A stretch of 64,000 bases of DNA from Planctomycetia bacterium (GTDB lineage Bacteria > Planctomycetota > Brocadiia > Brocadiales > Brocadiaceae). The first letter of the stretch is position 1; each line of letters starts with the position of its first letter. Below the pieces are notes generated by a model that saw only the letters and a program-made list of their open reading frames with translations, had not been told where the DNA came from and ran no database searches. This document shows positions 28,514-57,536 of this stretch, piece by piece. The translations under genes and the position numbers were made by a program. The stretch covers positions 1,222,259-1,286,258 of the forward strand of contig JABTVC010000002.1 in the NCBI GenBank assembly GCA_015075005.1, in the 5' to 3' direction.

Positions 28514-29551
28514 TTAGTTTACGTACTTAAGCGCAGTTTCCCGCCGCAAAGAAAAAGCAACTACCCGCTCAATGTCGAAGATCTTTCGCGGGCATTCGAT
28601 CGTGGTTCGCCAGACTAAATTTAGTTTCCGTTCATCCGGTCGAATAATGACGGTATCCAGGTTTGCTATTCTTCTTTGCGGGCTACCATGATTGGGATGT
28701 ACGGCAATTCCAATCGCTATATCAGGTAAATTAAATGTCAGCACCCCTTCCGGCACAGCACCCGAGATCTTTACCGGCTCATTGCCCTGAAGATAGGGAG
28801 TACAAATCAACTCCGGGTGTGCAGCTTGAAACGCCCGGTCATCAAAATCTTCCGGTAAAAGCGGAAATTGTTCATTTTTCCATTTTTCATCGTAAGTGCC
28901 GGCATACTGAGCTCTTTGTTCCCAATTTCGATCGATAAACCCGAATCCGGCCGGCACGGGGCGGTCGGACCAATTTTTGATTAAATTGTGTGGGTCTTCT
29001 ATGTTCGGTAAGGGCAGCCCGTTTTCCGGCTTTTGCGCATAAAATCCAGTGCCTACCGGGTTTCGCCGTTCCCAGTCATGTTTGGCCGGATTTTTGTGGC
29101 GGGTATCTACGCCGCCAAAAGCATATTCGTATTTTAAGGGCATTTTTAAAAACGGTTCGGGTTTGCTGATATACAGGCTTCCTAACATTCGATTCCAAAT
29201 ACGGTTGCCAAAAATCATCACGCTTTTAGTTACCGAGCCCACCTGTAATGTTACCAGCATTTTCGTGACAGGCTGTTGGTTAGGCGCATAAACCATTCCT
29301 ATCATTATCACATCCGTGCCGGGCTTTCGCATCGCTACATCCGATCCCATCCGAATACTCGATTTTCCTTCTTCGCCAAAGTATTCATCGGCATAACAAA
29401 TCGGTTCTTGTTTACTAGATTTAGCAATTTCTTCCGCACTCTCGATATCGAAGGTCCCTTTGATTAGCGCAATGAGTAAAATTCGACCATCCGAGCCTTG
29501 AGCCGGGATGAGATCACCCTGAAAATCGGATTTATTCTTAAGAGTAGCCAT
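28514..29551 (-). CDS. DUF2169 protein, predicted T6SS effector adaptor
   Basis: This 345-residue protein reads LIALIKGTFDIES, then SDVAMRKPGTDVIMIGMVYA, KYEYAFGGVDTRH, NPVGTGFY and VPAGFGFIDRNW. These are DUF2169 hallmarks. Members act as chaperone/adaptors that load effectors onto VgrG or PAAR proteins. It sits between the immunity/effector genes and the ketosynthase-HEAT gene in a minus-strand operon headed by vgrG. Length is typical, and no membrane segment is present. Confidence 0.85.
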   Translation of the reverse strand: MATLKNKSDFQGDLIPAQGSDGRILLIALIKGTFDIESAEEIAKSSKQEPICYADEYFGEEGKSSIRMGSDVAMRKPGTDVIMIGMVYAPNQQPVTKMLVTLQVGSVTKSVMIFGNRIWNRMLGSLYISKPEPFLKMPLKYEYAFGGVDTRHKNPAKHDWERRNPVGTGFYAQKPENGLPLPNIEDPHNLIKNWSDRPVPAGFGFIDRNWEQRAQYAGTYDEKWKNEQFPLLPEDFDDRAFQAAHPELICTPYLQGNEPVKISGAVPEGVLTFNLPDIAIGIAVHPNHGSPQRRIANLDTVIIRPDERKLNLVWRTTIECPRKIFDIERVVAFSLRRETALKYVN

Positions 29552-29603
29552 ACAATAAAAAAAGAGATTAAAAGTATGTGGACCTCAACACTGGAATAGC
29601 CTT

Positions 29604-30137
29604 TCATTTTTCCTTGGATTCTTTTTCGTCTTCAATTAATCCTTTTAAGTCTTCGGCTGTTTGTTGTAGTAAATCTATAAAATCTGAATAACGAGCAACT
29701 TCACTGTATTCCAAGTTTATGATTTCCATCTCGCCTTTATCGTCTACCTTAGAAGTATCCAATATATAACCTCCGACAGAATCGAGTTGAACACCGATGA
29801 AAATTCCATCTATTGCGGCAGAGTTACCTTCCTCCCACGCCTCTTTTTTTAGTTTTTCAATCCACTCGGCATATTTCCCACGTTGATGTTGCTCGATGGA
29901 AATCAAATGGGTATCTCCCTCCCAATGTTGCCATCCATTATGCAAGGAAAGGAATATTCGATAAGAAGGGGGTAGCTGTTGACCAAGCCATTTTTCAAAA
30001 GCGGCGATCTCGCTCTCTTTTGCAGGAGGATTTAATCGCTGCTTTATACCTGCCCGGATTAAATCATAATATTCTTGATTCAACTTGAATACTTCTTGCA
30101 TCCAATGTTCTACCGTAAAACGATCAATCTTGTACAT
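29604..30137 (-). CDS. SMI1/KNR4-family immunity protein
   Basis: This 177-residue protein has the SMI1/KNR4 core: AAFEKWLGQQLPPSYRIFLS, HNGWQHWEG, then a beta-rich middle and YSDFIDLLQQTAEDL near the end. The family provides immunity to many polymorphic and T6SS toxins, often nucleases. It follows the putative nuclease gene by 18 bases, the expected order for an effector-immunity pair. The tail is charged (DEKESKEK). The family call is secure; the pairing is inferred. Confidence 0.83.
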   Translation of the reverse strand: MYKIDRFTVEHWMQEVFKLNQEYYDLIRAGIKQRLNPPAKESEIAAFEKWLGQQLPPSYRIFLSLHNGWQHWEGDTHLISIEQHQRGKYAEWIEKLKKEAWEEGNSAAIDGIFIGVQLDSVGGYILDTSKVDDKGEMEIINLEYSEVARYSDFIDLLQQTAEDLKGLIEDEKESKEK

Positions 30138-30155
30138 GGTATTTAGTCCTTAAAA

Positions 30156-30599
30156 TCATGGGCAACAATCTGCAGTAAAACCAGTGGCGTGAGTTATTTC
30201 AGAATTGTTCATCTGCGAACCTATGGAGGTATTAACCGATGCATCTAACCATTGGAAAGGGCCCTTCGCATTTCCTCCCCATTGAGAATCTACGATGTGA
30301 TCTGCCTGCAGAGGTTTGCCATTTGTCTTAGCACACGTATGGGCATACTCGGCATCCCCGCCCTTGGGCTTGTTAAATGGATACCACCCCTCGGCATTTG
30401 GATTATTCCAGTCACGAGAGTATTTGGCTTGCCAGGATTTTTTTGCTCTCTTGATGCGTTTATTTAACGGGCGCTTTGTCAAAGGAGCCGATTTATTTAA
30501 CGATGCGACTTTTGAACACATCTGTTTTTTTTGACAATCATTCCAGTCACCCTTGCATTTTAAGGGGACTACACCACTAACTATTACGGTATTTTGCAT
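30156..30599 (-). CDS. Putative nuclease effector of the T6SS
   Basis: This 147-residue basic protein has a Lys/Arg-rich first half (KRIKRAKKSWQAKYSRDW). Its C-terminal block QADHIVDSQWGGNAKGPFQW followed by LDASVNTSIGSQMN resembles HNH-like toxin domains (ADHI-x-x-x-Q-GG...LD-x-x-VN-x-S-G). His in ADHI is the likely catalytic or metal ligand. Several Cys (CKGDWNDC, CTDCC-like end) may bind zinc or form bridges. No signal peptide is present. It lies between a PAAR-like protein and an SMI1 immunity gene, strong context for an effector. Activity is unproven. Confidence 0.68.
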   Translation of the reverse strand: MQNTVIVSGVVPLKCKGDWNDCQKKQMCSKVASLNKSAPLTKRPLNKRIKRAKKSWQAKYSRDWNNPNAEGWYPFNKPKGGDAEYAHTCAKTNGKPLQADHIVDSQWGGNAKGPFQWLDASVNTSIGSQMNNSEITHATGFTADCCP

Positions 30600-30629
30600 T
30601 TTATTCTCGCGACGTGCAATCGTTAAACT

Positions 30630-31034
30630 TTAAAGTAGAGCAGGCCCGAAGGCATTATAAGTGCCCCTGCCATTTTGCTTCATAGGATCCATTTTCCTCG
30701 GCACATTCTTGCCTTCCACTTTTACATCAAAAGAATAATTGACAAACATTGCTTTTCCCCGATTGCAATTGGAGACCACTCCACCCACTGTGCCGGCCTC
30801 GTCACCATTACTCTTGCTGAAATTAGAATTCTTGAGCATAATCCCCTGCCCGTTGACTTTTACTTTTTTACTAGTATCAGCAGAATCGGAGGACCTGGCA
30901 ATATTCGGATAGGGTATAGGAATTGGGCCTCCGGGCGTGGGGGTTTTACAAACATCCGGAAAAGCGATGATCATTCCATCGCTATTTTTATGGACAAAGG
31001 TCCAGGGCTGGTTTACGGCAACATCCACTGCCAT
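30630..31034 (-). CDS. PAAR-like DUF4150 spike protein
   Basis: This 134-residue protein reads GMIIAFPDVCKTPTPGGPIP, then IPYPNIA, KVKVNGQGIMLKNSNF, SNGDEAGTVGGVVS and GKAMFVNYSFDVKVEGKNVP, the DUF4150 (PAAR-like) pattern. Such proteins cap the VgrG spike and recruit effectors. It follows the DUF6484-like gene by 21 bases and precedes the nuclease gene, so it is probably the carrier of that toxin. Complete and intact. Confidence 0.88.
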   Translation of the reverse strand: MAVDVAVNQPWTFVHKNSDGMIIAFPDVCKTPTPGGPIPIPYPNIARSSDSADTSKKVKVNGQGIMLKNSNFSKSNGDEAGTVGGVVSNCNRGKAMFVNYSFDVKVEGKNVPRKMDPMKQNGRGTYNAFGPALL

Positions 31035-31847: not shown

Positions 31848-33698
31848 TTACTGTTTTGCAGCGCCAATCTCCTCGGCCTTCAGACCTCCGATGGTCTCAT
31901 TCATTGCAGCGCCCACGCTTACCTGGTAACCGGCGCCTATTGTTAAAGCCTTGGCAAGGATGATCGTTTCTGTCTTTGCCGCACCAACTTTTTGAGACAT
32001 GTTGGCATCAATTGTCTCTGTATGATTAGCGCCCACCTTAATGGTCTTATTGGCGCCAATGGTTTCACTCTGGTCAACACCTACTTTCTTCGTGCGGTTA
32101 TTCCCAACAGCCAGCGTTTCATCATGTCCAACGGTCTGGTTTTTATCATTTTCAATAGCAATGGTCCAGTCCTTTTGACCGTGAAGGAAAATTTCTTCGC
32201 CGCCCTTTTTGTCCTCGAAACGGAGTTCGTTAGAACCACCGCCACCTTTGGACGAGTCCGACTTAATGGTGCTCTTTGTTTTTTCTCCAGGGAGACCATA
32301 CGGAGGTTTGTTGGTACCATGGTAGACACGGCCAATGATGATGGGACAGTCCGGATCACCTTCGAGGAAATCGACTATCACTTCCTGGCCAATACGAGGG
32401 ATATACATGGCTCCCCAACCCATGCCCGCCCAGAGCTGGCTCACGCGAATCCAGCAGGAGCTTTTATCGTCTTTCTTTCCTTCCCTATCCCAGTGGAATT
32501 GCACCTTTACACGGCCATGTTCGTCGGTATAAATCTCTTCACCTTCAGGGCCTACCACAATGGCCGTCTGGACACCTTCGACAACAGGTTTTGGCGTTCT
32601 CCGCGGTGGTCGATAGGGCACGTCAAAGGGGATGCACGTAAAATTATTGACATAAGCAAACTCAGATACCGCATCTTCGGTGGTGTATCCCTGTCTTGCC
32701 GAATGACTCAGGGATGTTAAGACATATGCCTTGTCATTCATATCCTTCCGGTAATAGTCCTTAAGATCGAACTTGTATCCGCTCGTAAAGGCCCTGCAAT
32801 TGCTCGAACCGGTTATGGTTGTGATTCCTGCCTCTTCTTCCTGCATGCGTATATTGGCTAACTTGTCGCCCCTGGCCCTTTTGCCATACCCACCCGGGTA
32901 GTCGTAAATCTCCCGTTCTCCAGGTCCCAGGGCTTTTTGACTGGGCGCCTCCACCTTCAGATCGGTGTTGGGCGTTTCAAAATTGAAATCTTTCAGGGTA
33001 TATTTACCCGGCTTGATCTCCTGCATTACCTCGATGCTTGATATCGTGTCTTCTTCCAGCCAACCACCGGCGCTTGTCTGATACCGGGCAGTCTCTTGGT
33101 TAGGGTATGGTTTGTGTTCTTCCGGTGTATCGGACAGGATCAGGGTATGCTTATTGTTTTCATGTTCAAAAAAATAATAAATGCCTTCTTCCTCAAGCAG
33201 CCTGCAAATAAAGTTAAAGTCAGTTTCCCGGTATTGTACGCAGTAATCCCACTTATCGTAACTGCCATGGAGCTTATTTTTATAGTCTAAAAATCCTTTT
33301 TCCTTAAAGATCTTTTCTACGATGTCTGGTATAGAAAGATTCTGAAATATCCTGGAATCCGCAGTCCTCGTAAGTAACCAGAACCAAGGGACCATCGTGG
33401 CTGTATAGCAAGTAAGTCTAAGGTCTCGTCCTTCATCACTACTGCCTCGTCCCTGTGAAAAGCGTGATATTAAGCCGTGAAAATACCGTTTTCTCCCTTT
33501 GCCAATACGACGGAGACAGAAACGTTTTTCCCGATAATATCCTTGAATGGTATGCTGTGGTTTCCGAGAGCAGTTCGAGTTCGAAGTTAAATGGCGTGGA
33601 GAGCCCTTCCAAGCCATGGAAACCTGAAAGTAACAGGGCGTCCTTGCCAGGGGTGTATCAATAGCGATAAGTCTGTTATCCTGCGTGTAGGTGGGCAT
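31848..33698 (-). CDS. vgrG: VgrG spike protein (N-terminal part scrambled by compensating frameshifts)
   Basis: The spike trimer protein has the gp27-like part (FNFICRLLEEEGIYYFFEHE), the gp5 OB-fold region (TDEHGRVKVQFHWDREG, SCWIRVSQLWAGMGWGAMYI, PRIGQEVIVDFLEGDPDCPI) and C-terminal beta-helix repeats (VGANHTETIDANMSQKV). Between 33492 and 33648 the open frame is wrong. Three one-base losses (CC at 33647-33648, TTT at 33561-33563, TTTT at 33489-33492) shift through all frames and back. Restoring them yields PGKDALLLSGFHGLEGLS, FNFELELLSE and SIPFKDIIGKNVSVSVVLAK. It heads the payload operon. Confidence 0.9.
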   Translation of the reverse strand: MPTYTQDNRLIAIDTPLARTPCYFQVSMAWKGSPRHLTSNSNCSRKPQHTIQGYYREKRFCLRRIGKGRKRYFHGLISRFSQGRGSSDEGRDLRLTCYTATMVPWFWLLTRTADSRIFQNLSIPDIVEKIFKEKGFLDYKNKLHGSYDKWDYCVQYRETDFNFICRLLEEEGIYYFFEHENNKHTLILSDTPEEHKPYPNQETARYQTSAGGWLEEDTISSIEVMQEIKPGKYTLKDFNFETPNTDLKVEAPSQKALGPGEREIYDYPGGYGKRARGDKLANIRMQEEEAGITTITGSSNCRAFTSGYKFDLKDYYRKDMNDKAYVLTSLSHSARQGYTTEDAVSEFAYVNNFTCIPFDVPYRPPRRTPKPVVEGVQTAIVVGPEGEEIYTDEHGRVKVQFHWDREGKKDDKSSCWIRVSQLWAGMGWGAMYIPRIGQEVIVDFLEGDPDCPIIIGRVYHGTNKPPYGLPGEKTKSTIKSDSSKGGGGSNELRFEDKKGGEEIFLHGQKDWTIAIENDKNQTVGHDETLAVGNNRTKKVGVDQSETIGANKTIKVGANHTETIDANMSQKVGAAKTETIILAKALTIGAGYQVSVGAAMNETIGGLKAEEIGAAKQ

Positions 33699-35878: not shown

Positions 35879-35894
35879 GAAGAAGACTGTCGGA

Positions 35895-35928
35895 AAGCCG
35901 TGTGCGGGAAAATCGCATGCACGGTTTG
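35895..35928 (+). ncRNA. Group II intron domain V
   Basis: AAGCCGTGTGCGG-GAAA-ATCGCATGCACGGTTTG matches the conserved 34-base domain V hairpin (consensus GAGCCGTATGCGGTGAAAGTCGCACGTACGGTTC in form). It provides the catalytic core, including the AGC-like triad at its base. It lies directly after the maturase stop. Confidence 0.85.
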
Positions 35929-36071
35929 ACGAGGGGGCAGATGATAAGTATATGGCGGAGATATGGTGGCACTGGCGGGAAACCAGCCAGCAAACAGAGA
36001 AAACAAACTTCTGCCTAAGTTCTCGTCGTCTGTTTCTACTCTACCGTAAATCTGCGGCTAAATAATTATTC

Positions 36072-38769: not shown

Positions 38770-38827
38770 AAAAGTGTGACATGGCACACAAGTGTGACGT
38801 CACATAAGTGTGCCATGTCACACTTTT
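38770..38827. promoter_or_regulatory. 58-bp near-perfect palindrome upstream of the T6SS operon
   Basis: The outer 19-base arms (38770-38788, 38809-38827) are perfectly complementary, and the centre is the palindrome TGTGACGTCACA. Over all 58 bases only three positions per arm mismatch. The unit GTGTGAC/GTCACAC or GTGTGCC/GGCACAC recurs five times. It could be a multi-site operator or a cruciform. As RNA it would form a long hairpin ending in T5, so a terminator for upstream transcription is also possible. Confidence 0.6.
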
Positions 38828-38958
38828 TATATGGTACTGCTGAATCGCTTCGCTAATTTGCATTTTCTATTATTTCACAAGCATCTGAAAATTAAAGCTT
38901 TGAGAAATAGTTTTTGAAATTTCCAGTTCCATCACACTAGGTATCTGAATTGCGTATC

Positions 38959-39060
38959 TTAAATATTACGATAAAGGCAAACCATGAGTGATCATGGGGC
39001 GCAAAGTGTAGGATCTTTAGATAAACATAAGTAAAGATAGCCTTACTGCCGAATGTTTAA
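38959..39060 (+). ncRNA. GEMM-I cyclic-di-GMP-type riboswitch aptamer
   Basis: P1 pairs TTAAATATT (38959-38967) with AATGTTTAA (39052-39060). GGCAAACC (38976-38983) and CGCAAAG (39000-39006), the most conserved GEMM-I blocks, flank a CCATGA/TCATGG stem capped by GUGA, a GNRA loop. A second stem ATCTTTA/TAAAGAT (39013-39019, 39032-39038) follows, then GATAGCC-TTACTGCCGAA, as in the GEMM-I 3' block. The 3' part overlaps the terminator arm at 39039-39049. The aptamer senses c-di-GMP or possibly cGAMP; I cannot fix the specificity base by eye. It precedes the T6SS operon. Confidence 0.85.
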
Positions 39061-39088
39061 AAAAATATTTTGCAGTAGGGCTTTTTTT
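39039..39088 (+). terminator. Riboswitch-controlled intrinsic terminator
   Basis: AGCCTTACTGC (39039-39049) pairs with GCAGTAGGGCT (39072-39082, one G-U), followed by seven T (39082-39088). The left arm belongs to the riboswitch aptamer, so folding of the aptamer and the terminator exclude each other. Ligand binding should therefore favour readthrough into the T6SS operon, an ON switch. This logic is inferred from the overlap. Confidence 0.8.
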
Positions 39089-39218: not shown

Positions 39219-41471
39219 ATGAACGACTATAGAAAGAAATATTCTTTACTTCTTTATTTGAATCGTTGCCAGAGTGGTACATATTTACGACCATCTCTTC
39301 AATGCCAGAATACCTCAATTCTCGAAAAAACACCTTTTCCTTTTTTAGTCACGGCAGAATCTGATCCCCTTGCTCGCCTCGTCGAGGCCAAGTTTGTAAC
39401 TGATGCTGACAGTGAGATACAGAAGGTGTTCCTCTTGGTTCAGAGAGATCAATACCTCATAACAAGGAACGAATTATGGCCCATTAACAATAGAGATGTT
39501 GAAGATGCCTGGCAAAAGGCATTTTCTTTTTATACAAGAGGAAATCAAAATACACCCCTTATAATTCTTTCAAATCAAATTAATGAAAAAGGGCAATTGG
39601 CGCAGATGTCTTCCCTTTTATTTTGTAAAACCAAACAAGTTTTTTTTCACCCACCCTGTCCAAAATGTGGACTTCTCTTGCAGCAATGTGAAGACGATGC
39701 CCTTCTTACCAGTTCAGGATTGCAGTCATACTCACAATCGCTGAAACGTTATTTGTTCTGCCCTGCCTGTTGTCCGGCAAGCGAACGCGATTTTTATGTG
39801 TGTGAATCAGACCGTTTTGACCCTCCGTCGGTTAAGGACCGCTGTGCTTTAATAAAGGAATTTGCACAATTACCCAAAAGGGGATGTGCGGATACTCAAT
39901 TCCCCTGTGGAGAATGTCCAAATCATCAGGAGTGTTTTGGCGCAGACTATAAGGTTTTAACAAGGATTGCACCTTTTTCCTTCTATCCCTTTTATATGTT
40001 TGTATTTCATGCCATGTCCTTAAATGCACAGGATTTTTTGTCTCTTGTCTCTGGCGCACCATTTGACGATATTGAAGCACCGCTGAAGACAAAACAGGAG
40101 TTTGGCAGGATACATTGTGTGAAGGCAATCAGGCAAAATTGTTTTGAAAAGGTACCTTTTCTCTATGATCGTGATGAAAGGCATTTCCTGGAAATATTGT
40201 ATTTAAAGCTTTCTTTCCTGGCAGGACTCCTTCAGAATTTCAGTTCAGGAAATAGCCTTTTTCTCCCCAAAGATTTGAGATTGTCCCTTGATCGAATTTG
40301 GGTTAAACTTGCCGAACAAGGCGGATTTCTTCCCTTTTTTTGGAACTTTAAGGTTAATTATATAGACATTAACAGGTATCTGACAGAAACACAATCACTC
40401 CCAAAACCACCTGCATCTGATGGTCTCTTCTCCTTTGGACTCGTTTGGTTTTATGCCCTTTTGGTCAATAAGCAACAGAATAGTGAAAAGGTCTATGGTT
40501 TTTTAGGAGAAATAATGGACCAAATGGATTTTCAGGATGAAGCTTCATTTGAAAAATTATGCAAGGAAGGTTTTCGTACTCCACTCCTTCCTGAGAATAT
40601 TTTCTGGAACCCTGAAGGAAAGGCGGTGAACAAGGATTGGCATATGCTCTGGGAGAGGGGGCTTCATTTAGGATGGTCTTTGTTAACGACGGCCTTCCGA
40701 GATCATAAAGAATGGTCTAAGACATTTTTTCAAAAAATAGAAGATTTAAGGGAAGAGGTCAAGTGTAACCTGTTGAGCAGAGAAAAAGAACGTCCTTTGG
40801 AAAGAGTAGGAGAGCCCCAGGAAATCCTTTCCAGATCGGAAGGGCCAAAGAAAGCCGATGTTCGTCCGCCTCCCAAGGTTTTGCACAAGGAAGAAACCGT
40901 AAATACCGCCCGTTCCGTCATGCTGGAAAACAGGGCAATTAATGAAATTCTCATGAAAATTAGTAAGAAATGGCAGACGGGAATTGGAAAAGAAAAGACC
41001 GATGCAAATGAAACCGTTACCCTTATCCTAAAGGATCTAAACAAAGAGTTTCACTTGAAAAAGGATAAAGCGACCAGGGAGGTCATTCCTGAGACAGTTA
41101 TCATTACGCCAGGAAAGGGAAAAAAAATCCTGAAGACAGATCCAATTCAGGAAGAATTGGATCAAACCGTTATTCTTTCTCGCGAGGGTTTACAAAAAGA
41201 ACGTTCCTCTGAAAAGGCAAAAGAGCCACAGGAAACCATTCCTGAAACGGTTATCATTGCACATCAGGAAGTAGACGCAGAGGCTTTAAGCACGTTCCCA
41301 AGGGTACAACCAAAAGATTCTTATATGAATGAAAAAGTGTTTTCTTCGAAAGAGAAAGATATATTGGAACAGGCAAATAAAAATAGTGAAAGAACTGATG
41401 AACCAGAGTTTATAGCCGAAACGGTTATCCTTAAACCAGAAAGGATAAAGAATAAAAATGGTAACAAGTGA
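39219..41471 (+). CDS. Cys-rich protein with C-terminal TVI repeats, first gene of T6SS operon
   Basis: This 750-residue protein is of no family I recognise. Residues 145-245 hold zinc-ribbon-like pairs: PPCPKCGLLL, FCPACCPAS, PCGECPNHQECFG. The middle 250-500 is helical and aromatic-rich. The last 150 residues are low-complexity and charged, with five similar motifs: NETVTLIL, PETVIITP, DQTVILSR, PETVIIAH and AETVILKP. These could be docking or phospho-Thr sites (FHA domains read T-x-x-I/L), but no kinase or FHA domain is encoded nearby. It is the first gene after the riboswitch and overlaps the next by 14 bases, so it belongs to the operon. Confidence 0.65.
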   Translation: MNDYRKKYSLLLYLNRCQSGTYLRPSLQCQNTSILEKTPFPFLVTAESDPLARLVEAKFVTDADSEIQKVFLLVQRDQYLITRNELWPINNRDVEDAWQKAFSFYTRGNQNTPLIILSNQINEKGQLAQMSSLLFCKTKQVFFHPPCPKCGLLLQQCEDDALLTSSGLQSYSQSLKRYLFCPACCPASERDFYVCESDRFDPPSVKDRCALIKEFAQLPKRGCADTQFPCGECPNHQECFGADYKVLTRIAPFSFYPFYMFVFHAMSLNAQDFLSLVSGAPFDDIEAPLKTKQEFGRIHCVKAIRQNCFEKVPFLYDRDERHFLEILYLKLSFLAGLLQNFSSGNSLFLPKDLRLSLDRIWVKLAEQGGFLPFFWNFKVNYIDINRYLTETQSLPKPPASDGLFSFGLVWFYALLVNKQQNSEKVYGFLGEIMDQMDFQDEASFEKLCKEGFRTPLLPENIFWNPEGKAVNKDWHMLWERGLHLGWSLLTTAFRDHKEWSKTFFQKIEDLREEVKCNLLSREKERPLERVGEPQEILSRSEGPKKADVRPPPKVLHKEETVNTARSVMLENRAINEILMKISKKWQTGIGKEKTDANETVTLILKDLNKEFHLKKDKATREVIPETVIITPGKGKKILKTDPIQEELDQTVILSREGLQKERSSEKAKEPQETIPETVIIAHQEVDAEALSTFPRVQPKDSYMNEKVFSSKEKDILEQANKNSERTDEPEFIAETVILKPERIKNKNGNK

Positions 41472-42225
41472 TAGTTCAGATCTTCTTAAGACAATGACTG
41501 AAGAAATCAGGATATTATATAATTCTGATCGTTCACAAGTACAAGCAGAAAAATTAATCGAAGACTATTTAGCATTGAAGTTGTATGAGACTCAGCCGGA
41601 TAAAAAAATGGATCTCTTGATGAAACTTACTCAGCAATTTAAAACTCAAAGCACGGAGAAAGAAACAACCTTCCCGCTTGAAGCAAAAGAATTTTCGCAT
41701 CTTTTTTCTCTGTTGTTGGGAAAAGAAATCTTTAAGGCCGACCTTTCCGCCGGCGACGGTATGGAAAAATTAGCAAAGTCCTTGCAAACGCTTTTTGATA
41801 CCCTAAACAAGATCATAAGCGTAATTCAGACCTCCTTATTCGGGGAAACGCTTAAATTTGAAACAATTCGACAGGTGATAGGGAATGACCTTGACAAAAA
41901 AGAGGAAGGAACAGAGTCTCTTCAAAACTATCTCGATCAAATCAAGAAGGCTTTTTTAGTTTCCCACAAGGCCTTTCAGCAAGCTGCGAATGCCAAGGTA
42001 AAACAAATTCTGGACGAATTAGACCCGGATCGTATCTCTGCATCGGTGAAGGGGGGGTTAAGATTTGGCGCCCTGCGCAGGGCGGAGCTTTTTGATATTT
42101 ATAAAGACAAATTTCTGGCCTGTAAAGGTTGGGTTGATTCGGGGCGTTTCAGGGATGAGATGTTAAGGGAATTTGAAAAGGTATGTCTGAAATTGTATAA
42201 AACGGAAATGAGAGGCACCAAATGA
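41458..42225 (+). CDS. TagH C-terminal-domain-like T6SS protein lacking FHA
   Basis: This 255-residue protein has a C-terminal half LDELDPDRISASVKGGLRFG, then ALRRAELFDIYKDKF and FRDEMLREFEKVCLKLYK. This resembles the C-terminal domain of T6SS FHA proteins (TagH/ImpI), where a P-x-x-I, K-x-x-LW-x-x-Y and F-x-x-x-F-x-x-AY pattern is found. No FHA domain is present at the N-terminus. It overlaps both neighbours by a few bases, showing translational coupling. A role in baseplate or sheath regulation is inferred. Confidence 0.62.
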   Translation: MVTSDSSDLLKTMTEEIRILYNSDRSQVQAEKLIEDYLALKLYETQPDKKMDLLMKLTQQFKTQSTEKETTFPLEAKEFSHLFSLLLGKEIFKADLSAGDGMEKLAKSLQTLFDTLNKIISVIQTSLFGETLKFETIRQVIGNDLDKKEEGTESLQNYLDQIKKAFLVSHKAFQQAANAKVKQILDELDPDRISASVKGGLRFGALRRAELFDIYKDKFLACKGWVDSGRFRDEMLREFEKVCLKLYKTEMRGTK

Positions 42226-42731
42226 AAAATACGATCAAGATGCTGCTCGTTGTTGCGCTTTTCTCTTGGCTTTGTTCATGTGCGAGTAGTGGTAGAAAGC
42301 CAGATTATGATATCTATGGTGAGGGGGCTGTCCGATTCCATATTAAAAGCGATCAGGATTTAAATTATTATAACGGAGAGCCGCATACGTTGATGCTCTG
42401 TGTTTATCAACTTCGTAGTTTGAATGCGTTTAACCAGTTGAAAGATGAAAAAGAAGGGTTGTCTAAATTACTAGAGTGCAGTAGTTTTGATTCAAGCGTG
42501 ACATCTTCCAAGTCGTTTGTAATTTATCCCGGAGAGGATGTATCTAAAACTTTAGACCGGGCCGAGGGCACTCAATATATTGGTATTGTAACCGGCTATT
42601 ATATGGCACAAAAAGATGAAGCGGTTCGTACCCATCAAATACCTGTTAGCTTTTTTGGGAAAAAGCCAAAGAAAGTAGATGCGGAACTTTCTTTGGGACG
42701 GGAAAAAATTAAAGGGTTCATGGGGAAATAA
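42222..42731 (+). CDS. tssJ: TssJ outer-membrane lipoprotein
   Basis: This 169-residue protein has a lipoprotein signal (MLLVVALFSWLCSC, lipobox with Cys about residue 20). The TssJ core follows: VRFHIKSDQDLNYYNGEPHT, LMLCVYQLRSLNAFNQL and KSFVIYPGEDVSKTLDRAEG. It anchors the TssLM trans-envelope complex at the outer membrane by binding the TssM C-terminus. It overlaps the previous gene by 4 bases and tssK by one base (TAATG). Intact. Confidence 0.92.
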   Translation: MKNTIKMLLVVALFSWLCSCASSGRKPDYDIYGEGAVRFHIKSDQDLNYYNGEPHTLMLCVYQLRSLNAFNQLKDEKEGLSKLLECSSFDSSVTSSKSFVIYPGEDVSKTLDRAEGTQYIGIVTGYYMAQKDEAVRTHQIPVSFFGKKPKKVDAELSLGREKIKGFMGK

Positions 42732-44119
42732 TGGATATTCAAAGACCGATTTTTTGGAAACAGGGTCTCTTTTTACAGCCGCAGCATTTTCAGTTGCTTG
42801 ATTTGTCCTTCAGGTCGCTTTTGTCGCCTTTTCTTAATTTTCTTGAGCCATACTTTTGGGGCATCGGTGAAATAAAGATCCAGGAGACGGCATTGGGGAT
42901 AAAAACGTTTAGCATTGTTACGGGTAATCTTTTGTTTCAGGACGGGACTCATGCCGTTGTACCGGGTAATGCAATTATCGAGGGCCGTCCCTTTGATAAG
43001 GCCTGGGTAGAAGGTGGTAAACCTTTGTCTGTCTATATTGGTATCAAAAAATGGAATGATGCAGGCGAAAATGTTACCATCCTTGATAAATTGGAGTCTT
43101 TCTCAGGAGTAACCACACGTTGTGTTGCAACAAAGGACCCTGAAGAAGTTGCGGATTTACATAGTTGCGGCCCTAAGGGCGAAGTTCAGCGGCTTTATTA
43201 TGTGCTCAAAGTATTCTGGGAGACAGAACGGGATCAATTGAGAGATTATGTCCTTATGCCCGTTGCTAAAGTGGAAAGGATGGGTGAAGAGATACTATTA
43301 TCCCGGCACTTTGTCCCGCCATGTCTAACCATTACTTGTTCTGAACCCCTTCTGAAACTTATCAAGGAAATCAGAGATCAGATTACCGCACGCTGTCACC
43401 AGCTTGAAGAGTATAAAACGCAGAGAGGAGTTCAGACGGCAGAATTTGGATCAAGGGATATGGTTTATTTGTTGGCCTTAAGGTCTCTTAATCGATATGT
43501 TCCTCTCCTTCATCATGTTACTGAATCGCAGCAAGTACATCCCTGGGATGTTTACGGAACGTTAAGACAACTTATTGGAGAGCTGTCATCTTTTGATGAG
43601 AGGGTGAACGTGTTGGGTGAAGCAGACGGTGGCAAGAGTATCCTCCCTGTTTATGATCATGAGAACCTTTGGGAATGTTTTTCTGCTGCTCAGGCGTTAG
43701 TTGTTCAACTTTTAGATAAAATAACGGCTGGGCCTGAATATGTGATTCGTATGGCTTATGACGGGACTTACTATGCAGCTGATTTGAAACCGGAAATGTT
43801 TGAAGGTCGTAACCAGTTTTATCTGGTATGTAATACCGAAGAGGATCCCAAATCATTGATCCAGCATGTGAAGACCATTGCTAAGTTAGGCTCCCGGGAA
43901 CATGTGCCAATTCTTATTGCACGTGCACTTCCAGGCATAAAATTGGAACACCTTCCGGTTGCCCCTCCGCAATTACCCAGGAGGGCACATTCGATGTATT
44001 TTGCTATTGACCACCATTGTGACCAATGGGTCTTGGTGAGAAAGGGTAACAATATCGCCCTTTACTGGGATACTGCACCGGAGGATTTAGAGGTTGAACT
44101 TATGGTTGTAGGAAAATAA
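42731..44119 (+). CDS. tssK: TssK baseplate protein
   Basis: This 462-residue protein starts with the TssK hallmark IFWKQGLFLQPQHFQLLDL and contains KVERMGEEILLSRHFVPPCL, RQLIGELSSFDERVN and LARALPGIKLEHL near the end. TssK is the trimeric connector between the T6SS baseplate and the membrane complex (TssL/TssM). It follows tssJ with one base overlap. Length and motifs are standard. Confidence 0.95.
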   Translation: MDIQRPIFWKQGLFLQPQHFQLLDLSFRSLLSPFLNFLEPYFWGIGEIKIQETALGIKTFSIVTGNLLFQDGTHAVVPGNAIIEGRPFDKAWVEGGKPLSVYIGIKKWNDAGENVTILDKLESFSGVTTRCVATKDPEEVADLHSCGPKGEVQRLYYVLKVFWETERDQLRDYVLMPVAKVERMGEEILLSRHFVPPCLTITCSEPLLKLIKEIRDQITARCHQLEEYKTQRGVQTAEFGSRDMVYLLALRSLNRYVPLLHHVTESQQVHPWDVYGTLRQLIGELSSFDERVNVLGEADGGKSILPVYDHENLWECFSAAQALVVQLLDKITAGPEYVIRMAYDGTYYAADLKPEMFEGRNQFYLVCNTEEDPKSLIQHVKTIAKLGSREHVPILIARALPGIKLEHLPVAPPQLPRRAHSMYFAIDHHCDQWVLVRKGNNIALYWDTAPEDLEVELMVVGK

Positions 44120-44212
44120 TAAGGATGCATTGTTGCAGTAAATGGGAATATTACGTTGTGAAGCGTAAAAAGGGATTTTAGAATCTTAAAGGCACTATGC
44201 CAGGAATTCTCT

Positions 44213-44878
44213 ATGCATTTAACTGATTATTTTATAGAACTGATAGCCTATGTGGTTTATTTCCAAAAAACTTTGGCTACAAAACAACCGAAATACGAAC
44301 AGGTAAAGGCTGATATCTTACGCCTTCTCACACAAAGTGAAAATTGTCTCAAAAATGATTTTTTCTCACGGGAAGATTACGACCATGCCCGTTTTGTGAT
44401 ATGCGCTTGGGTAGATGAAGTAATTCTCAATTCTGCATGGGTTCAAAAAAACCAGTGGCAGAAAGAACAACTTCAGCGTATTTACTACCATACTGCCGAT
44501 GCCGGAGAAGAGGTTTTTGAAAGATTGAATACCCTGGGACTCCATCAGAGAGAGGTCAGAGAAGTGTATTATCTTTGCCTGGCCCTGGGTTTTAAGGGGC
44601 GCTATTGCCATAAAAGTGACGAATATCTCCTGGAGCAATTAAGAACGTCAAATCTTAAACTTCTCATGGGAAGTTCCGTAGGACTTCCTTCGCTTGAACG
44701 GGCAGAACTTTTTCCTGAGGCCTACCCAGTTGAAACCGTTGATGTTGTTCCCCAAAGGCAGAGATTTCGGCTCTCAATTCTTACCGTTGCCAGTCTTGCG
44801 GGTTCGGTCCTCTTTTTTGGATTGTTATTGTTGATTTACCGGTTTGTTCTGAGTGGAGTTGGAAATATCGTTCTCTAA
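44213..44878 (+). CDS. tssL: TssL inner-membrane protein (DotU family)
   Basis: This 221-residue protein has a cytoplasmic DotU domain: FSREDYDHARFVICAWVDEV, ILNSAW and QRIYYHTADAGEEVFERLNT. One C-terminal membrane helix (SLAGSVLFFGLLLLIYRFVL) tail-anchors it. It lacks the C-terminal OmpA-like peptidoglycan-binding domain of extended TssL proteins. It forms the membrane complex with TssM, encoded 12 bases downstream. A gap of 93 bases follows tssK; no other feature is visible in it. Confidence 0.93.
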   Translation: MHLTDYFIELIAYVVYFQKTLATKQPKYEQVKADILRLLTQSENCLKNDFFSREDYDHARFVICAWVDEVILNSAWVQKNQWQKEQLQRIYYHTADAGEEVFERLNTLGLHQREVREVYYLCLALGFKGRYCHKSDEYLLEQLRTSNLKLLMGSSVGLPSLERAELFPEAYPVETVDVVPQRQRFRLSILTVASLAGSVLFFGLLLLIYRFVLSGVGNIVL

Positions 44879-44890
44879 GAAAGAACTTAT

Positions 44891-47800
44891 ATGAAAGATT
44901 TGTTTTTAAAGTTCCTTAAGATTTTTCTCATTATCGCAATAGTCATCCTAATTGCCCTTTTTGCTTTTGGGCTTGTACTGAGCCTGGATTGGCCATGGTG
45001 GGCAGGTTTCTTCATTTTGCTGGGCATCATAGGGATTTGTATCGGCGGTTTTTTCCTTCGGAAAATATGGTACAGATATCGGGAAAAGAAGTTTGTTCAA
45101 CAGGTTATAGATCAGGATGAACATCGTCTTTCAACCCTTAAAGGAAAAGAAAGAGAAGAGCTCAGAGAACTTCAGAATAAATGGAAAGAGGGCGTTGAGG
45201 CGTTGAAACGCTCACACCTGAGGAAGTTTGGGAATCCACTTTATGTCCTGCCATGGTATGTAATACTCGGTGAAAGTGGTACAGGAAAAACAACTGCTAT
45301 TAGCAGCGCGAAACTTCCTTCGTCTTTTGCAGAAATCAGCAAGGTCTCTGGTATTTCTGGCACCAGAAATTGCGATTGGTGGTTTTTTGAGCAGGCCATC
45401 ATTCTTGATACGGCCGGAAGATGGTCCATACATATCGATGAAGGCCGTGATAAAGAGGAGTGGCAAAAGTTTTTAACTCTATTAACAAAATACAGAAAAA
45501 GAGAGCCTATTAACGGTATCATTGTTTCTGTAGCTGCAAACAAACTCCTTGAAGCCTCACCTGAAGCTTTGGCAGAAGACGGTCGAAATATCCGTTGCCG
45601 TATTGATGAGTTAATGGGTGTTTTGGGGTTCAAATTTCCGGTATATGTGCTTGTTACCAAGTGTGACCTGATTCAGGGAATGACCAGGTTTTGTGATCGT
45701 CTGCCGGAAAAAGGACTTGACCAGCCAATGGGCGTTATTAACCAGGCTCTATCAACTGATACGGTTACTTTTCAGGAACAAGCTATTAATACCATAGGTG
45801 AGCGCTTGAGGAGTCTTCGACTTCTTTTTCTGCAGCAACCTGAATCTGAAGAGGCAGATCCGGGTATTTTGCTTTTCCCTGAAGAGTTTAAAAACCTGAA
45901 GCGCGGGCTTGGAGTTTTTATGAAGGAGGCTTTTTTAGGAAACCCCTATCAGGAGACATCAATTCTGAGGGGTCTATTCTTCAGCAGCGGGCGTCAGGAA
46001 GGGCGGCCATTTTCCCATTTTTTAAACGCATTAGGCCTTATTGGAGAAAAGGAGGTATTGCCAGGAACCAGTAAAGGCTTGTTCCTCCATGATTTTTTTT
46101 CCAGAATTCTCCCTATAGACAGACGACTTTTTGCCCCAACAAGGCGGACAATAGAATGGGGTAAACTTACAAGAAATCTTGGTTTGACGTCATGGTTTGT
46201 CGTTTGTGTTGCTATGTGCGGTATGCTGAGTTTTTCTTTTGTTAAAAACCTGAAAATTATAAGGGAGGTTCCCAATGAATTTTCTAAAGCCACCGTATTG
46301 AATGGGGAAATTGTCGATGATGTTGTAACTATGGATAGATTTAGGGAGATTATCTTAAACACAGAAGCACAAAACCGCGCGTGGTGGATTCCACGATTTG
46401 GAATGAATGAAAGTAATAATGTAGAGATGCAGCTCAAGGATAAATACGGTAAAAAATTTAGAGACCGGTTCTTAGTCCTTTTTGACAAGAGCATGGTATC
46501 CAAAATGACAAATTTTTCCGGTGATACTACGCAAGAGGTCTTTGGTCAGTATATCAATCACCTTGTAAAACGTATTAATCTGCTGCAGGCTCGTTTTGCG
46601 GGTGAAAATCTTCAGAGGCTTCGTGCAAGACCTCAGCCATTTCGCGATACCTCAATTTTTATAGAGGATAAAGAACCAGTATCGAAAATCCGGGAACGGT
46701 TTGCAGATTTATACCTTTATCATTTAGTCTGGTGGCATGATACGAATGTCCTCAACATGGAGATGAATGATCTGCAGAAGTGGCTAAAGCATATTTTGTC
46801 TACAAGAAAAATTAACTTTGACTGGCTGATTGCCTGGGTTAACACTGATCCGTCTTTGTCCCTCCATGAAGTTTCTTTGGCAAATTTTTGGGGTGGCAAC
46901 CAATCGGCATCATCCGAAACGGTCATACCCCCGGCTTTTACTCTTGAAGGGAAGGTGCAGATCGATGCGTTTCTTGCTGAGATTGAATCCGCACTCCCAG
47001 ACCCCCTTATTATTGCCAGCCAAAAATCTGAATTTCAAGAATTGTATCGCCAGGCTTATATGGAGAAGTGGTATGATTTTGGGAATAATTTTTCAAAGGG
47101 TATCGAAAGGCTAACGGGCAAGGAAAAATGGCAGGAGGTATTGGCTGGAATCGTGAAAAATCAGGGTCCATATTTTTTGTTATTGGACAGAATGGTTAAA
47201 GAACTGCAACCTTTTACGAGTGACGCAGATTTACCTGAATGGATTAAACATGTTTATGCGTTGAATAATGCAAGGTTTCAGGAAAAAAAACTAGAAATGG
47301 ATTCCGGAAAAGAAGTCTTATTGACGGCTGCAAAAAAAGGGAAAGAATTGCTCGGGAAAATCGGGCAAAAGACAGGCCTCGCCGTTGGTGGGAAAAATTT
47401 AGAGACTCAGTTGAAAACAGAAAATGCGTTTCGTGATTATCTTAACGCCTTAACAGCAATAGCGCCGGTATCTTCTTCACGAACGGTTGCATTCCAGATG
47501 GCAGCACAAGCCTTTTCTGAGGATCCGGCTACCGGTAAGTCGACGTTTTGGATAGCCCAAAATGCGGTAAACAGTCTCAAGGCTGTGATGGGAGGCACCA
47601 GTTCCGATCTGCAAATGTTTTGGCAATTAGTCACCGGACCACTCGAATTTTTAAAAATGTATACGATCAGGGAAACTTCCTGCTATCTGCAGAAATTGTG
47701 GGAAAAAGAGGTGATTATGGAACTTGGAGAAATATCTAATAAAAAGGACATAACTATGTTTCTTTTAAGTCCCGATGGTTTTGTTATGAATTTCATTAAT

Positions 47801-48394
47801 GAGCCTAAGGGACCCGCAGCTCCTTTTTTAGACCGTGATCCGAATAAAGGATATTATGCAAAAAGAGTATTGGGAGAAAAGGTACCTTTCGAAGAGCCTT
47901 TTCTTACTTTTATAACTGGAGGATACAAAACTGCCAGATCAATTAAAAAAAATTATGAGGTTATTATTGATGCACTTCCTACGGATACTAATTCTGATGC
48001 AAGCAAAAAGCCTCATTGTACAAAATTAGAACTTAAGTGTAGTGGTAGTATTCAGAACTTGGTAAATCGCAACTATCCTGTAAAACAGACATTCTCGTGG
48101 GCACCTGATACCTGCGGTGATGTTCTTTTACAGATAGAAATAGCCGATAAAATTCTCACAAAACAATATGAAGGACCTCAAGCCTTTCCCATTTTTTTAC
48201 GGGATTTCTCTGGTGGTCAGCACACTTTTTCACCAAAGGATTTCTCCGGAGAGCAGCAATCCTTTCTGGGGCGGTTAGGGGTCAAGTATATCAAGGTAAA
48301 CTATGAATTTCATGGACATCAAGTGCTTCTTGATCATTTCGATTCTCTTCCCAAAACGGTACCTGAGAACATTGTGACATGTTGGGATCGGTAA
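44891..48394 (+). CDS. tssM: TssM inner-membrane ATPase-like protein (IcmF)
   Basis: This 1167-residue protein has two N-terminal membrane helices (IFLIIAIVILIALFAFGLVL and the next), then a cytoplasmic NTPase domain with Walker A GESGTGKTTA (about residue 127). A third helix (WFVVCVAMCGMLSFSF) lies near residue 435, followed by a large periplasmic part ending in the TssJ-binding region. IcmF features such as LDTAGRW are present. Together with TssL and TssJ it spans the envelope. It overlaps tagF by 16 bases. Full length, no break. Confidence 0.95.
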   Translation: MKDLFLKFLKIFLIIAIVILIALFAFGLVLSLDWPWWAGFFILLGIIGICIGGFFLRKIWYRYREKKFVQQVIDQDEHRLSTLKGKEREELRELQNKWKEGVEALKRSHLRKFGNPLYVLPWYVILGESGTGKTTAISSAKLPSSFAEISKVSGISGTRNCDWWFFEQAIILDTAGRWSIHIDEGRDKEEWQKFLTLLTKYRKREPINGIIVSVAANKLLEASPEALAEDGRNIRCRIDELMGVLGFKFPVYVLVTKCDLIQGMTRFCDRLPEKGLDQPMGVINQALSTDTVTFQEQAINTIGERLRSLRLLFLQQPESEEADPGILLFPEEFKNLKRGLGVFMKEAFLGNPYQETSILRGLFFSSGRQEGRPFSHFLNALGLIGEKEVLPGTSKGLFLHDFFSRILPIDRRLFAPTRRTIEWGKLTRNLGLTSWFVVCVAMCGMLSFSFVKNLKIIREVPNEFSKATVLNGEIVDDVVTMDRFREIILNTEAQNRAWWIPRFGMNESNNVEMQLKDKYGKKFRDRFLVLFDKSMVSKMTNFSGDTTQEVFGQYINHLVKRINLLQARFAGENLQRLRARPQPFRDTSIFIEDKEPVSKIRERFADLYLYHLVWWHDTNVLNMEMNDLQKWLKHILSTRKINFDWLIAWVNTDPSLSLHEVSLANFWGGNQSASSETVIPPAFTLEGKVQIDAFLAEIESALPDPLIIASQKSEFQELYRQAYMEKWYDFGNNFSKGIERLTGKEKWQEVLAGIVKNQGPYFLLLDRMVKELQPFTSDADLPEWIKHVYALNNARFQEKKLEMDSGKEVLLTAAKKGKELLGKIGQKTGLAVGGKNLETQLKTENAFRDYLNALTAIAPVSSSRTVAFQMAAQAFSEDPATGKSTFWIAQNAVNSLKAVMGGTSSDLQMFWQLVTGPLEFLKMYTIRETSCYLQKLWEKEVIMELGEISNKKDITMFLLSPDGFVMNFINEPKGPAAPFLDRDPNKGYYAKRVLGEKVPFEEPFLTFITGGYKTARSIKKNYEVIIDALPTDTNSDASKKPHCTKLELKCSGSIQNLVNRNYPVKQTFSWAPDTCGDVLLQIEIADKILTKQYEGPQAFPIFLRDFSGGQHTFSPKDFSGEQQSFLGRLGVKYIKVNYEFHGHQVLLDHFDSLPKTVPENIVTCWDR

Positions 48395-49182
48395 AATCTG
48401 AACAACGTTGGCAGTGGGGTGCTTACGGCAAGCATCCGGTGTCCCGGGACTTTTTTAGAATTGGCCGTGATTTCCCATTAATGAAGAATTTTTCAGAGTG
48501 GGTTGAAAAAGGATATACCATGCTGGCTTCAAAGAGTAAGGGCATTGGAAAAAGTTGTTCCTGGCGCTTTTGGGCAAAAGGGCTCCGTAAAGAATTCCTT
48601 GTTTGTGGTTTAGTAAGGGATAGCAGTGATAGACTCGGCCGGCCTTATCCACTTTTGGTCATGGGAACAGGTATCCTTAAGCGTTGGGAAGATCAATGGG
48701 ATCTTTTGCCATTTGCCTGTGAAAAGACCTGGGACCAGGTTGAGTATCTTTCTGCACAAAGGTATAACGACTTTACAAAATTGGAAGTGGATGTGAGCAA
48801 CATTCGATCTCCTTATTCTGAGTGGCAGGAGTTTAAAACAAAAAGAGAAAGTTCCCTGGAATTTGTCGAAAAGTTAGAGGATACCTCGTTTCAGGATCTC
48901 AGGGATCTTGAAGACCTGGCATCAAAAATGTCAAAAAAGACTGAGTGTTTTGTTTGTCTGGATAATAAACTATTTCAGAACCAAACGGTGCTGATTAACT
49001 ATTGGCACGTTCTTTTTAAGACCCACCCGCACGCCGTTCCAAGCGCTATTTTTATGGGCGGGACAATAGAAAGGGCATATCTGGTTCTTTTTAGGCGACC
49101 TTTAACGCCGGTTGATTTTGCTCATTTATGGTCTGTTACGTTTCCGGAGTCAATGGGAAGTGACTCACTTTTTAGCAGGTGA
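48379..49182 (+). CDS. tagF: TagF (ImpM) T6SS regulator
   Basis: This 267-residue protein has the ImpM/TagF motifs WGAYGKHPVSRDFFRIG, then FSEWVEKGYTML and SDRLGRPYPLLVMGTG, ending with RRPLTPVDFAHLW. TagF is a post-translational repressor of T6SS assembly in Pseudomonas, often acting with Fha. It overlaps tssM by 16 bases and is followed directly by tagJ. Intact. Confidence 0.9.
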   Translation: MLGSVKSEQRWQWGAYGKHPVSRDFFRIGRDFPLMKNFSEWVEKGYTMLASKSKGIGKSCSWRFWAKGLRKEFLVCGLVRDSSDRLGRPYPLLVMGTGILKRWEDQWDLLPFACEKTWDQVEYLSAQRYNDFTKLEVDVSNIRSPYSEWQEFKTKRESSLEFVEKLEDTSFQDLRDLEDLASKMSKKTECFVCLDNKLFQNQTVLINYWHVLFKTHPHAVPSAIFMGGTIERAYLVLFRRPLTPVDFAHLWSVTFPESMGSDSLFSR

Positions 49183-49190
49183 TTTCTAAA

Positions 49191-49995
49191 ATGGATTCAA
49201 AAGATCTTATCAAAGCGGGTAGACTTTCAGAGGCTCGTGAGCAGGTAATCGAAGAGGTTAAATCTTCACCTGCTGATTTGAGCAAGCGGACGCTTTTATT
49301 TCAGGTACTTTCTTTTTGCGGTGAATGGGATAAGGCAGAACGCCATCTCGATGTGATTGCAGCCCAGGATTCGAACCGGGAGACAGGGGTGCAAGTGTAT
49401 AAGAATTTGATTCAGGCAGAGAGAGTGCGCGGTGAAGTTTTTAAGCGGAATAATCGGCCTTCGTTCTTGTCCAAAACACCACCCTATCTCGAAATGTACT
49501 TTTCAGTCCAGGATAAGCTGCTTGAAAAGAACATAGAAGATGCAAATGATCTTTTCAGACAAATTGATTCACAACGCCCTGGTATCGCTGGAACCATACA
49601 TGGTAAGAGTTTTCGTGGTTTTAAGGATACGGACACGTTTGTATCCTTTTTTCTCGAAGCGATGGTTCACGAGAAATATATATGGATGCCTTTTGAATCA
49701 ATGAAGGAAGTTTTTATTTCACCGCCGAAAACACTTTTTGATTGTCTTTGGATTGCAGCACGTATGACCACATGGGATGGACTTAGTTTAAACTGTTATC
49801 TGCCTGTGCTCTATATTAATTCGTATCATCACCATGATGATCGGATAAAGCTTGGAAGAATGACTGACTGGACTTTTCTTGGTGGGCCATTTTAAAAGGA
49901 TCAGGACAGCATATTTTCAGATTGGCGAAGAAGAAGTTCCGATTTTGGAAATCCGTGAGGTCGTATTTAAAATCCCTGATACGATAAATACATGA
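49191..49995 (+). CDS. tagJ: TagJ (ImpE) sheath accessory protein (frameshifted at the 3' end)
   Basis: ATG 49191 is chosen because AGGTGA precedes it; a GTG at 49179 is the alternative. The TagJ/ImpE pattern is clear: AGRLSEAREQVIEEVKSSPA, FLSKTPPYLEMYFSVQDKLL, FESMKEVFISPP and IKLGRMTDWTFLGG. The first frame stops at 49893. Two one-base losses (T run 49890-49893; near 49918) restore GQHIFQIGEEEVPILEIREV to TGA 49993-49995. TagJ binds the TssB N-terminus and influences sheath recycling by ClpV. The stop overlaps the tssA ATG (ATGA). Confidence 0.82.
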
Positions 49996-51301
49996 TGAAG
50001 AGAAAGATTGATTTAGATGGTATATTAAACCCCTTTCTGGCGAAAATCCAGCGGGTGAGGATATTTGTTACGATATTGTTTATGATGAGGTAAAGGAAGC
50101 CAGAAGGGAAAGTTATACAAGTGAAGATATATTAGGCAAAAGCGAAAACAGGAAGGATGAGGATAAAAAGGCCGATTGGGATAAGGTAATTGAATTGTCA
50201 ATTGCCGCACTTACTAAGAAGACCAAAGATTTGCAAATAGCTGTCTGGCTTACTGAAGCATTAGTTAAGACTGAAGGCTTTGAAGGTCTCACCACGGGTC
50301 TTAAAATACTCACCGGCCTTTTAAAGAATTATTGGGATCATGTTTATCCAAAGACTGATGGGGGAGATTTTGAATCCAGGGCTAACCGGCTTGAGCTTAT
50401 TAATGAGAAACTCTCATTTTCTGTAAAGCAAATACCTATTACAGATAGTAAATCGACACCTGGTTATTCCTGGATACAATGGAAGGAATCGCAGGGAGAA
50501 ATGGTAGCTGAAAAAGCTACCGGCAATGAAAAAAAGGTAACACATGATGATTTTAATCTTGCAGTCTATACATCGGCAGGGGCGTACTATGAGGCTCTCG
50601 AAAATAATTTGAAGCAATGTCGTGAGGCTTTTGATGATTTCGGAAAAATAGCCGATGAAAAATTTGGCACTAAGCAAGCACCAAGTTTTGCTAAAATTAA
50701 GAAATCGCTTGATGATTTGGGACAGTTTATGTCAAGTGAAAAGGTTGCGGAATTGATACGGGAAGAAAAAAACAAGCATGCTCCGTCACCCGAACAGCAG
50801 ACAGAAGAGGATGTTACTATACAGAAAGATAAAAAAGGACATGAAGAAGCAATGTATCCATCATCCATGAGTATGCCTTTTGAATCACATAAGACAAGCC
50901 AATTTTCAGAAGCAGAAACCCTTGAAAAGAATGTATGGGAAGATGCACTGAAGAAATTGGAGAAAGGGGGAATCAAAACAGCACTGGGACTGATTTATGG
51001 GGCTTCATGCAGTACGCCTTCTGTGAGAGAAAGATATCGTTTTCGACTCCTTATGGCCAAACTTTGTTTAAAGGCACAAAGGCCGGATTTGGCAAGACCC
51101 ATTGTGGAGGAATTATATGCTTTGATAAATGAGTTACATTTAGAACGATGGGAATCCCCCATGTGGATCGCGGAGATACATGATGCCCTCTATCAATGCC
51201 TGACATCCGGGAAACAGCCTTCACCGGAGGATCAGGAAAAGGCAAAGGAGCTATTCAAGAAAATTTGCACAATGGATATTACCAGGGCAATTACTTACTA
51301 G
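49992..51301 (+). CDS. tssA: TssA (ImpA) cap/initiator protein (frameshifted at the 5' end)
   Basis: The start ATG 49992 overlaps the tagJ stop. The first frame gives KRKIDLDGILNP. After a one-base loss at 50030-50036 the expected SGENPAGEDICYDIVYDEVK and DWDKVIELSIAALTKKTKD appear. This ImpA_N domain continues through LLKNYWDHVYPKTDGGDFES to a C-terminal helical region ending at 51301. TssA proteins start and coordinate sheath and tube polymerisation. The total is about 436 residues, in range. The shift is likely a consensus error because both sides are conserved. Confidence 0.87.
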
Positions 51302-51509
51302 GATAGGGTTTCTTTAAATATATACAGACGTATTGCCATTGCGAACGATAGTGGAGCAATCTTGTATAACTATAAAAGAACTTACTTCGTCGTTTCGTTT
51401 CGCGCAATGACTTGTTATAAGGTATATTTATTTTCCCGAAAACGATGTACCAATCGGAAAATTGGTTTTTTTAATATTTTGTAAAATATAACTAAAGGAG
51501 GTGATATTT

Positions 51510-52034: not shown

Positions 52035-52046
52035 AGGAGGTGTATT

Positions 52047-53543: not shown

Positions 53544-53616
53544 AAAGACATATTTAATAATTAAATTTGGCAGTTTTACTTTGTTAACTTTACAAGAATG
53601 AAGGAGGGAATATCGT

Positions 53617-54114: not shown

Positions 54115-54125
54115 CTTTTTTGGAA

Positions 54126-54602: not shown

Positions 54603-54609
54603 AGAACTT

Positions 54610-57475: not shown

Positions 57476-57536
57476 AATAAATTAAGTTATGTCTGTGTAA
57501 ATCTGTAACCAAAAACTTAAGAAAAGGAGATACGTC

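Follow-up and report, generated by a model that had tools for sequence, protein, structure and literature searches.

The analysed stretch of 64,000 nucleotides, hereafter the window, comes from a Candidatus Brocadia genome (anammox Planctomycetota) and contains a complete T6SS operon (39219-60176) downstream of a riboswitch. The core genes tssA-C, tssE-H, tssJ-M and hcp are present, together with vgrG, which is accompanied by PAAR-like, DUF2169 and SUKH genes at 28514-31034 on the opposite strand. Of the 62 genomes of the order, only two, both Brocadia, have the first gene of the operon. Its product carries four C-terminal (E/Q)TVI(I/L) repeats that are conserved in Ca. Brocadia pituitae (AP021856.1), our same-genus comparison genome. 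The repeats resemble phospho-Thr FHA-binding motifs, and a protein with two FHA domains is encoded nearby (locus L044, 2856-4523). The FHA-C-like protein of the operon is 47% identical to its counterpart in locus L084. Two further features of the region were recorded. A 500-aa protein (61267-62769) combines a VipA-like N-terminus with a VipB-like C-terminus and is thus an apparent fusion of both sheath proteins, encoded beside normal tssB and tssC genes. Moreover, the interval that separates the vgrG cluster from the T6SS operon contains, at 35893-36044, a group II catalytic intron match in Rfam (RF00029; 46.6 bits with a cut-off of 40).

Table 1. Coordinates of the riboswitch, its predicted control elements and the T6SS genes in the window.
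Feature	Position	Strand	Evidence or details
VgrG of associated effector cluster	31848-33698	-	
Composite palindrome, two GTGTGnCATGnCACAC sites (candidate UAS)	38773-38824	.	Sites at 38774-38789 and 38808-38823
Sigma-54-like promoter AGGTATCTGAATTGCG (GG-N10-GC)	38939-38954	+	Predicted start about 38965
P1 5' strand	38965-38970	+	Pairs with 39050-39054, A38968 bulged
c-di-GMP-I (GEMM-I) aptamer	38967-39054	+	Rfam matches, covariation
Conserved block GGCAAACC	38976-38983	+	
P2 hairpin, GUGA tetraloop	38982-38997	+	
Conserved block CGCAAAG	39000-39006	+	
P3	39005-39047	+	39005-39015 with 39036-39047
Intrinsic terminator	39040-39088	+	Left arm 39040-39049, right arm 39072-39081, U-tract 39082-39088
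Operon gene 1, 750 aa	39219-41471	+	No Pfam or NCBIfam match
T6SS FHA-C-like protein	41458-42225	+	Weak Pfam match
TssJ, TssK, TssL, TssM, TagF, ImpE-like, TssA, TssB, TssC, Hcp, TssE, TssF, TssG, ClpV/TssH	42222-60176	+	

The GEMM-I riboswitch of the original prediction was recovered by the Rfam search it had proposed, since two related covariance models match the aptamer above their gathering scores: c-di-GMP-I (RF01051; 65.8 bits, cut-off 35) and c-di-GMP-I-GGC (RF03167; 62.1 bits, cut-off 59, E 3e-12). Ranked by E-value, the variant model RF03167 comes first. When the window is aligned to the Rfam models, the ligand residues G20, A47 and C92 (Vc2 numbering) fall at 38976, 39003 and 39049, and all 23 aligned copies have G, A and C at these positions. 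The consensus of RF03167 is CGCGAAG, with a G at position 47, whereas the window has CGCAAAG. The A at this position agrees with the RF01051 consensus, and we therefore filed the element as a canonical c-di-GMP-I riboswitch and not as a member of the RF03167 subclass, even though the score of the GGC model, too, exceeds its cut-off. The named building blocks, GGCAAACC, the GUGA-capped P2, CGCAAAG and P3, are all in place. In the alignment of the 23 homologues the share of paired cells is 97.8%, and eight pairs are changed on both sides, a level of covariation reached by none of 500 shuffles. These double-sided changes fall in P2, where five of the six pairs show compensatory changes, and in P3. 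None was found in P1, the core pairs of which are kept in 23/23 homologues. The leader folds with a z-score of -5.7, and equal stability was seen in 0/200 shuffles. P1 itself had been described as a 9-bp helix. It is present, and it would comprise 9-11 pairs if transcription started at or before 38959, which its 5' strand reaches only with a start upstream. From the likely sigma-54 start at 38965, however, only about five pairs can form, so that, if this start is right, P1 is probably shorter than 9 bp.

The original prediction had left the ligand as c-di-GMP or cGAMP. An A at position 20 marks cGAMP (GEMM-Ib) riboswitches, and the G at 38976, together with the GGDEF residues described below, disfavours this class. 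The genome encodes at least 11 GGDEF proteins. The canonical Asp is found in 10 of the readable domains, one damaged copy has Asn at this position and one domain was unread. One of the GGDEF proteins is encoded on the same strand as riboswitch #28 of this genome, about 4.3 kb behind it. Hypr enzymes have a Ser at the GGDEF position that is otherwise Asp (PMC6456294), and none of the readable domains of the genome shows it. The residues G20, A47 and C92 and the GGDEF proteins with canonical Asp thus point to c-di-GMP, which, judged from these sequences, is the more likely ligand. That an otherwise unchanged switch naturally responds to cGAMP or another cyclic dinucleotide is unlikely. Such a reading could draw on the cGAMP-binding GEMM-I aptamers that exist in Geobacter, on position 20 being a selectivity factor and not a hard filter (PMC9262584), and on the variant RF03167 giving the best E-value; it is opposed by the G at position 20 in the copies read, by the A at position 47 and by GGDEF domains that carry Asp, or Asn in the damaged copy, instead of the Hypr Ser.

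The 3' arm of the aptamer, GCCUUACUGC (39040-39049), is at the same time the left arm of an intrinsic terminator. It pairs at 10/10 positions (one of them G-U) with GCAGUAGGGC (39072-39081), which is followed by seven T residues (39082-39088), and the predicted hairpin (39040-39081) has a computed stability of -21.7 kcal/mol. The proposed sharing of a strand between aptamer and T7-tailed terminator thus proved exact, and it includes C39049, the ligand-pairing C92 equivalent, whose predicted partner in the terminator is G39072. Since the arm is shared, ligand binding and termination are expected to be mutually exclusive, which predicts a transcriptional ON switch. Transcription would start at the sigma-54 promoter, at about 38965. 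When c-di-GMP is absent, 39072-39081 would capture the aptamer 3' arm including C39049, and RNA polymerase would stop in the U-tract near 39088; when c-di-GMP is present, the aptamer would keep its 3' arm, the terminator could not form and the operon would be transcribed from 39219. By computation, the terminator state is far more stable than the aptamer (-30.9 versus -11.3 kcal/mol for the named structures, the aptamer figure leaving out ligand and tertiary contacts), so that switching must be kinetic.

The same design is known from the pilM riboswitch of Geobacter metallireducens, for which an ON mechanism with a terminator that captures the ligand-pairing C has been shown by experiment (PMC9262584). 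The two aptamers are homologous, and in both the terminator takes up the aptamer 3' strand. They differ in that the pilM riboswitch responds to cGAMP and precedes a pilus gene, whereas the element described here has a G at position 20, a T6SS operon as its target and a sigma-54-like promoter with paired palindromes. OFF-acting GEMM-I riboswitches are also known (Cd1, PMC9262584; Vc2, PMC10482370), yet it is very unlikely that c-di-GMP binding promotes termination or blocks translation here: no separate antiterminator strand was seen; as in pilM, the 3' arm of the aptamer itself, ligand-contact C included, is part of the terminator; and the terminator lies 130 nt before the start codon. The predicted ON switch remains the best reading, as the exact overlap including the ligand-pairing C is conserved in the T6SS leader of Ca. 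B. pituitae.

TssK was found in three of the 62 genomes of the order, two of which are Brocadia (2/11 Brocadia genomes). The T6SS locus of B. pituitae is syntenic with the window, with the flanking methyltransferase 79%, gene 1 59% and TssK 76% identical, and it has the aptamer and the terminator at the same place. The aptamer arms are identical at 61/69 positions (88%) and the terminator at 39/51, compared to only 11/56 for the P3 loop and 27/128 (21%) for the downstream leader. Conservation of the arms, while loop and leader have diverged, indicates selection on the switch. Moreover, such riboswitches are abundant in these bacteria. We counted 22-57 GEMM-I copies per Brocadia genome and about 44 in the genome under study, where 32 of the 44 have an overlapping terminator (at least 9/10 pairs and a T-tail) compared to 0.25 expected. 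Among the first genes behind the riboswitches of this genome are those for adhesin-like and Big_5 surface proteins, a subtilase, a c552-type cytochrome, polysaccharide synthesis, a caspase-like peptidase, a sigma-54 activator and a Tc-toxin B-like (SpvB/TcdB-middle) protein. A tandem GEMM-I pair at C1:1366672-1366852 is of a different sequence type (short P3, P2 AATC/GGTT) and lacks the overlapping terminator. A second, near-identical leader with palindromes, sigma-54 element and riboswitch is found 31.5 kb downstream (L044, 6283-6700), in front of genes for an autotransporter-domain protein and a large Ig-like/PKD surface protein.

This abundance bears on whether a duplicated cassette simply landed in front of the operon by chance and has little effect there, the T6SS being run from internal promoters. 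Some of the approximately 44 copies are clearly duplicated, the near-copy is only 31.5 kb away, and there are promoter-like sites within the operon, which, like the terminator-like sites there, occur at chance level. We nevertheless regard a chance insertion as improbable: at the syntenic locus of B. pituitae it is precisely the functional arms that are conserved, while loop and leader have diverged, the right arm of the terminator is fully complementary in the window (10/10), and B. pituitae has a matching terminator. The main T6SS operon of this Candidatus Brocadia is thus probably switched ON, at the level of transcription, by a c-di-GMP-I riboswitch with an overlapping terminator, and the whole T6SS is probably made only when c-di-GMP is high.

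The T6SS riboswitch is not a general planctomycete trait, since a scan of 40 T6SS loci from other Planctomycetota with our own model detected none. Outside Brocadia, TssK has its nearest relatives in Desulfobacterota and Nitrospirota genomes (up to 72% identity), which suggests from protein similarity that the T6SS was acquired by transfer. Among the nearest-relative loci, 27 of 38 (B. pituitae copy included) had at least 4 kb upstream of tssK, and seven were also checked with Rfam. In this sample, which is not a census and in which many loci are cut by contig ends, no riboswitch was seen at the operon heads of the relatives. Only L084 has a clear GEMM (4748-4899), which is on the opposite strand and is directed away from the T6SS and at another gene. 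On the basis of this sample we dismissed the idea that the riboswitch arrived together with the T6SS from these relatives; it is of the host's own abundant type.

Upstream of the aptamer we found two elements that the original prediction had not noticed, a sigma-54-like promoter and a pair of palindromes. Taken alone the sigma-54 match is weak (score 7, chance about 4% per 130 nt); its GG-N10-GC element is conserved in B. pituitae, as is the palindrome pair. The two GTGTGnCATGnCACAC sites lie 131 and 165 bp upstream of the sigma-54-like element, and at riboswitches #24 and #38 the corresponding distances are 135 and 169-170 bp. They are the only such sites in the window (0.11 expected), and allowing up to one mismatch the genome contains 12 sites compared to one for the reversed pattern. 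The palindrome pattern is present in 11/11 Brocadia genomes, the exact reversed pattern in 0/11. When loci of other genomes were picked by the palindrome alone, 9/17 had a GEMM within about 500 bp (L193, L195, L196, L200, L201 and L203-L206), where the chance of a nearby GEMM is roughly 1% per locus at 44 copies per 3.9 Mb. In addition, 12/24 loci have a sigma-54 match with a score of at least 8 located 100-220 bp from a palindrome site, with a background of 0.17 per locus.

The association of palindrome, sigma-54 promoter and riboswitch in a cassette is therefore real across Brocadia. The palindromes are located about 140-190 bp ahead of the predicted start and probably bind a sigma-54 activator. 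Alternatively, they may represent a bidirectional terminator or a repeat element; matches of miRNA families to the palindrome were far below their cut-offs. If the palindromes are indeed activator sites, expression would need the activator signal and c-di-GMP at the same time, and the co-occurrence of the elements across Brocadia suggests such a two-key control. One palindrome pair (sites at C1:1454273) lies beside a gene for an NtrC-family sigma-54 activator (L146, 650-2361) next to a histidine kinase. The activator gene is read in two frames, due to a frameshift in the gene or in the assembly, and its product is a candidate activator of the cassette. We lean slightly towards the view that the recurrent Brocadia cassette, in which two palindromic activator sites spaced by 34 bp and a sigma-54 promoter at a fixed distance precede a c-di-GMP ON riboswitch with overlapping terminator, forms an AND gate over a complete T6SS. 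This would be the first case of direct riboswitch action on a T6SS main operon, and it would come from an anammox bacterium.

Control of T6SS by c-di-GMP is known only via proteins or via a riboswitch on an activator (PMC10482370). In Pseudomonas, T6SS output is likewise tied to the c-di-GMP level, through FleQ-mediated repression and Gac/Rsm control, but the effectors are proteins and the operon has no riboswitch (PMC10482370). The sole riboswitch effect in a 2023 review of T6SS regulation is that of Vc2 on tfoY of Vibrio cholerae, which is indirect and opposite in sign (PMC10482370). Vc2 is also a GEMM-I c-di-GMP riboswitch connected with a T6SS; unlike the element described here, for which direct, transcriptional ON control is predicted, it acts via the activator TfoY, at the level of translation, and is OFF with c-di-GMP. 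Searches of the open-access literature gave nothing relevant on c-di-GMP riboswitches of anammox bacteria or Planctomycetes or on a Brocadia T6SS. Thus, the aptamer class and the switch mechanism are already known; the novelty lies in a T6SS as direct target and in the coupling to a promoter cassette, and direct riboswitch control of a T6SS appears to be undescribed. Brocadia, moreover, has an unusually rich c-di-GMP riboswitch system that is undescribed in the searchable literature. Anammox bacteria grow slowly and live in dense granules, and riboswitch control of the structural operon, if true, would link the attached or aggregated state of these bacteria directly to weapon production.
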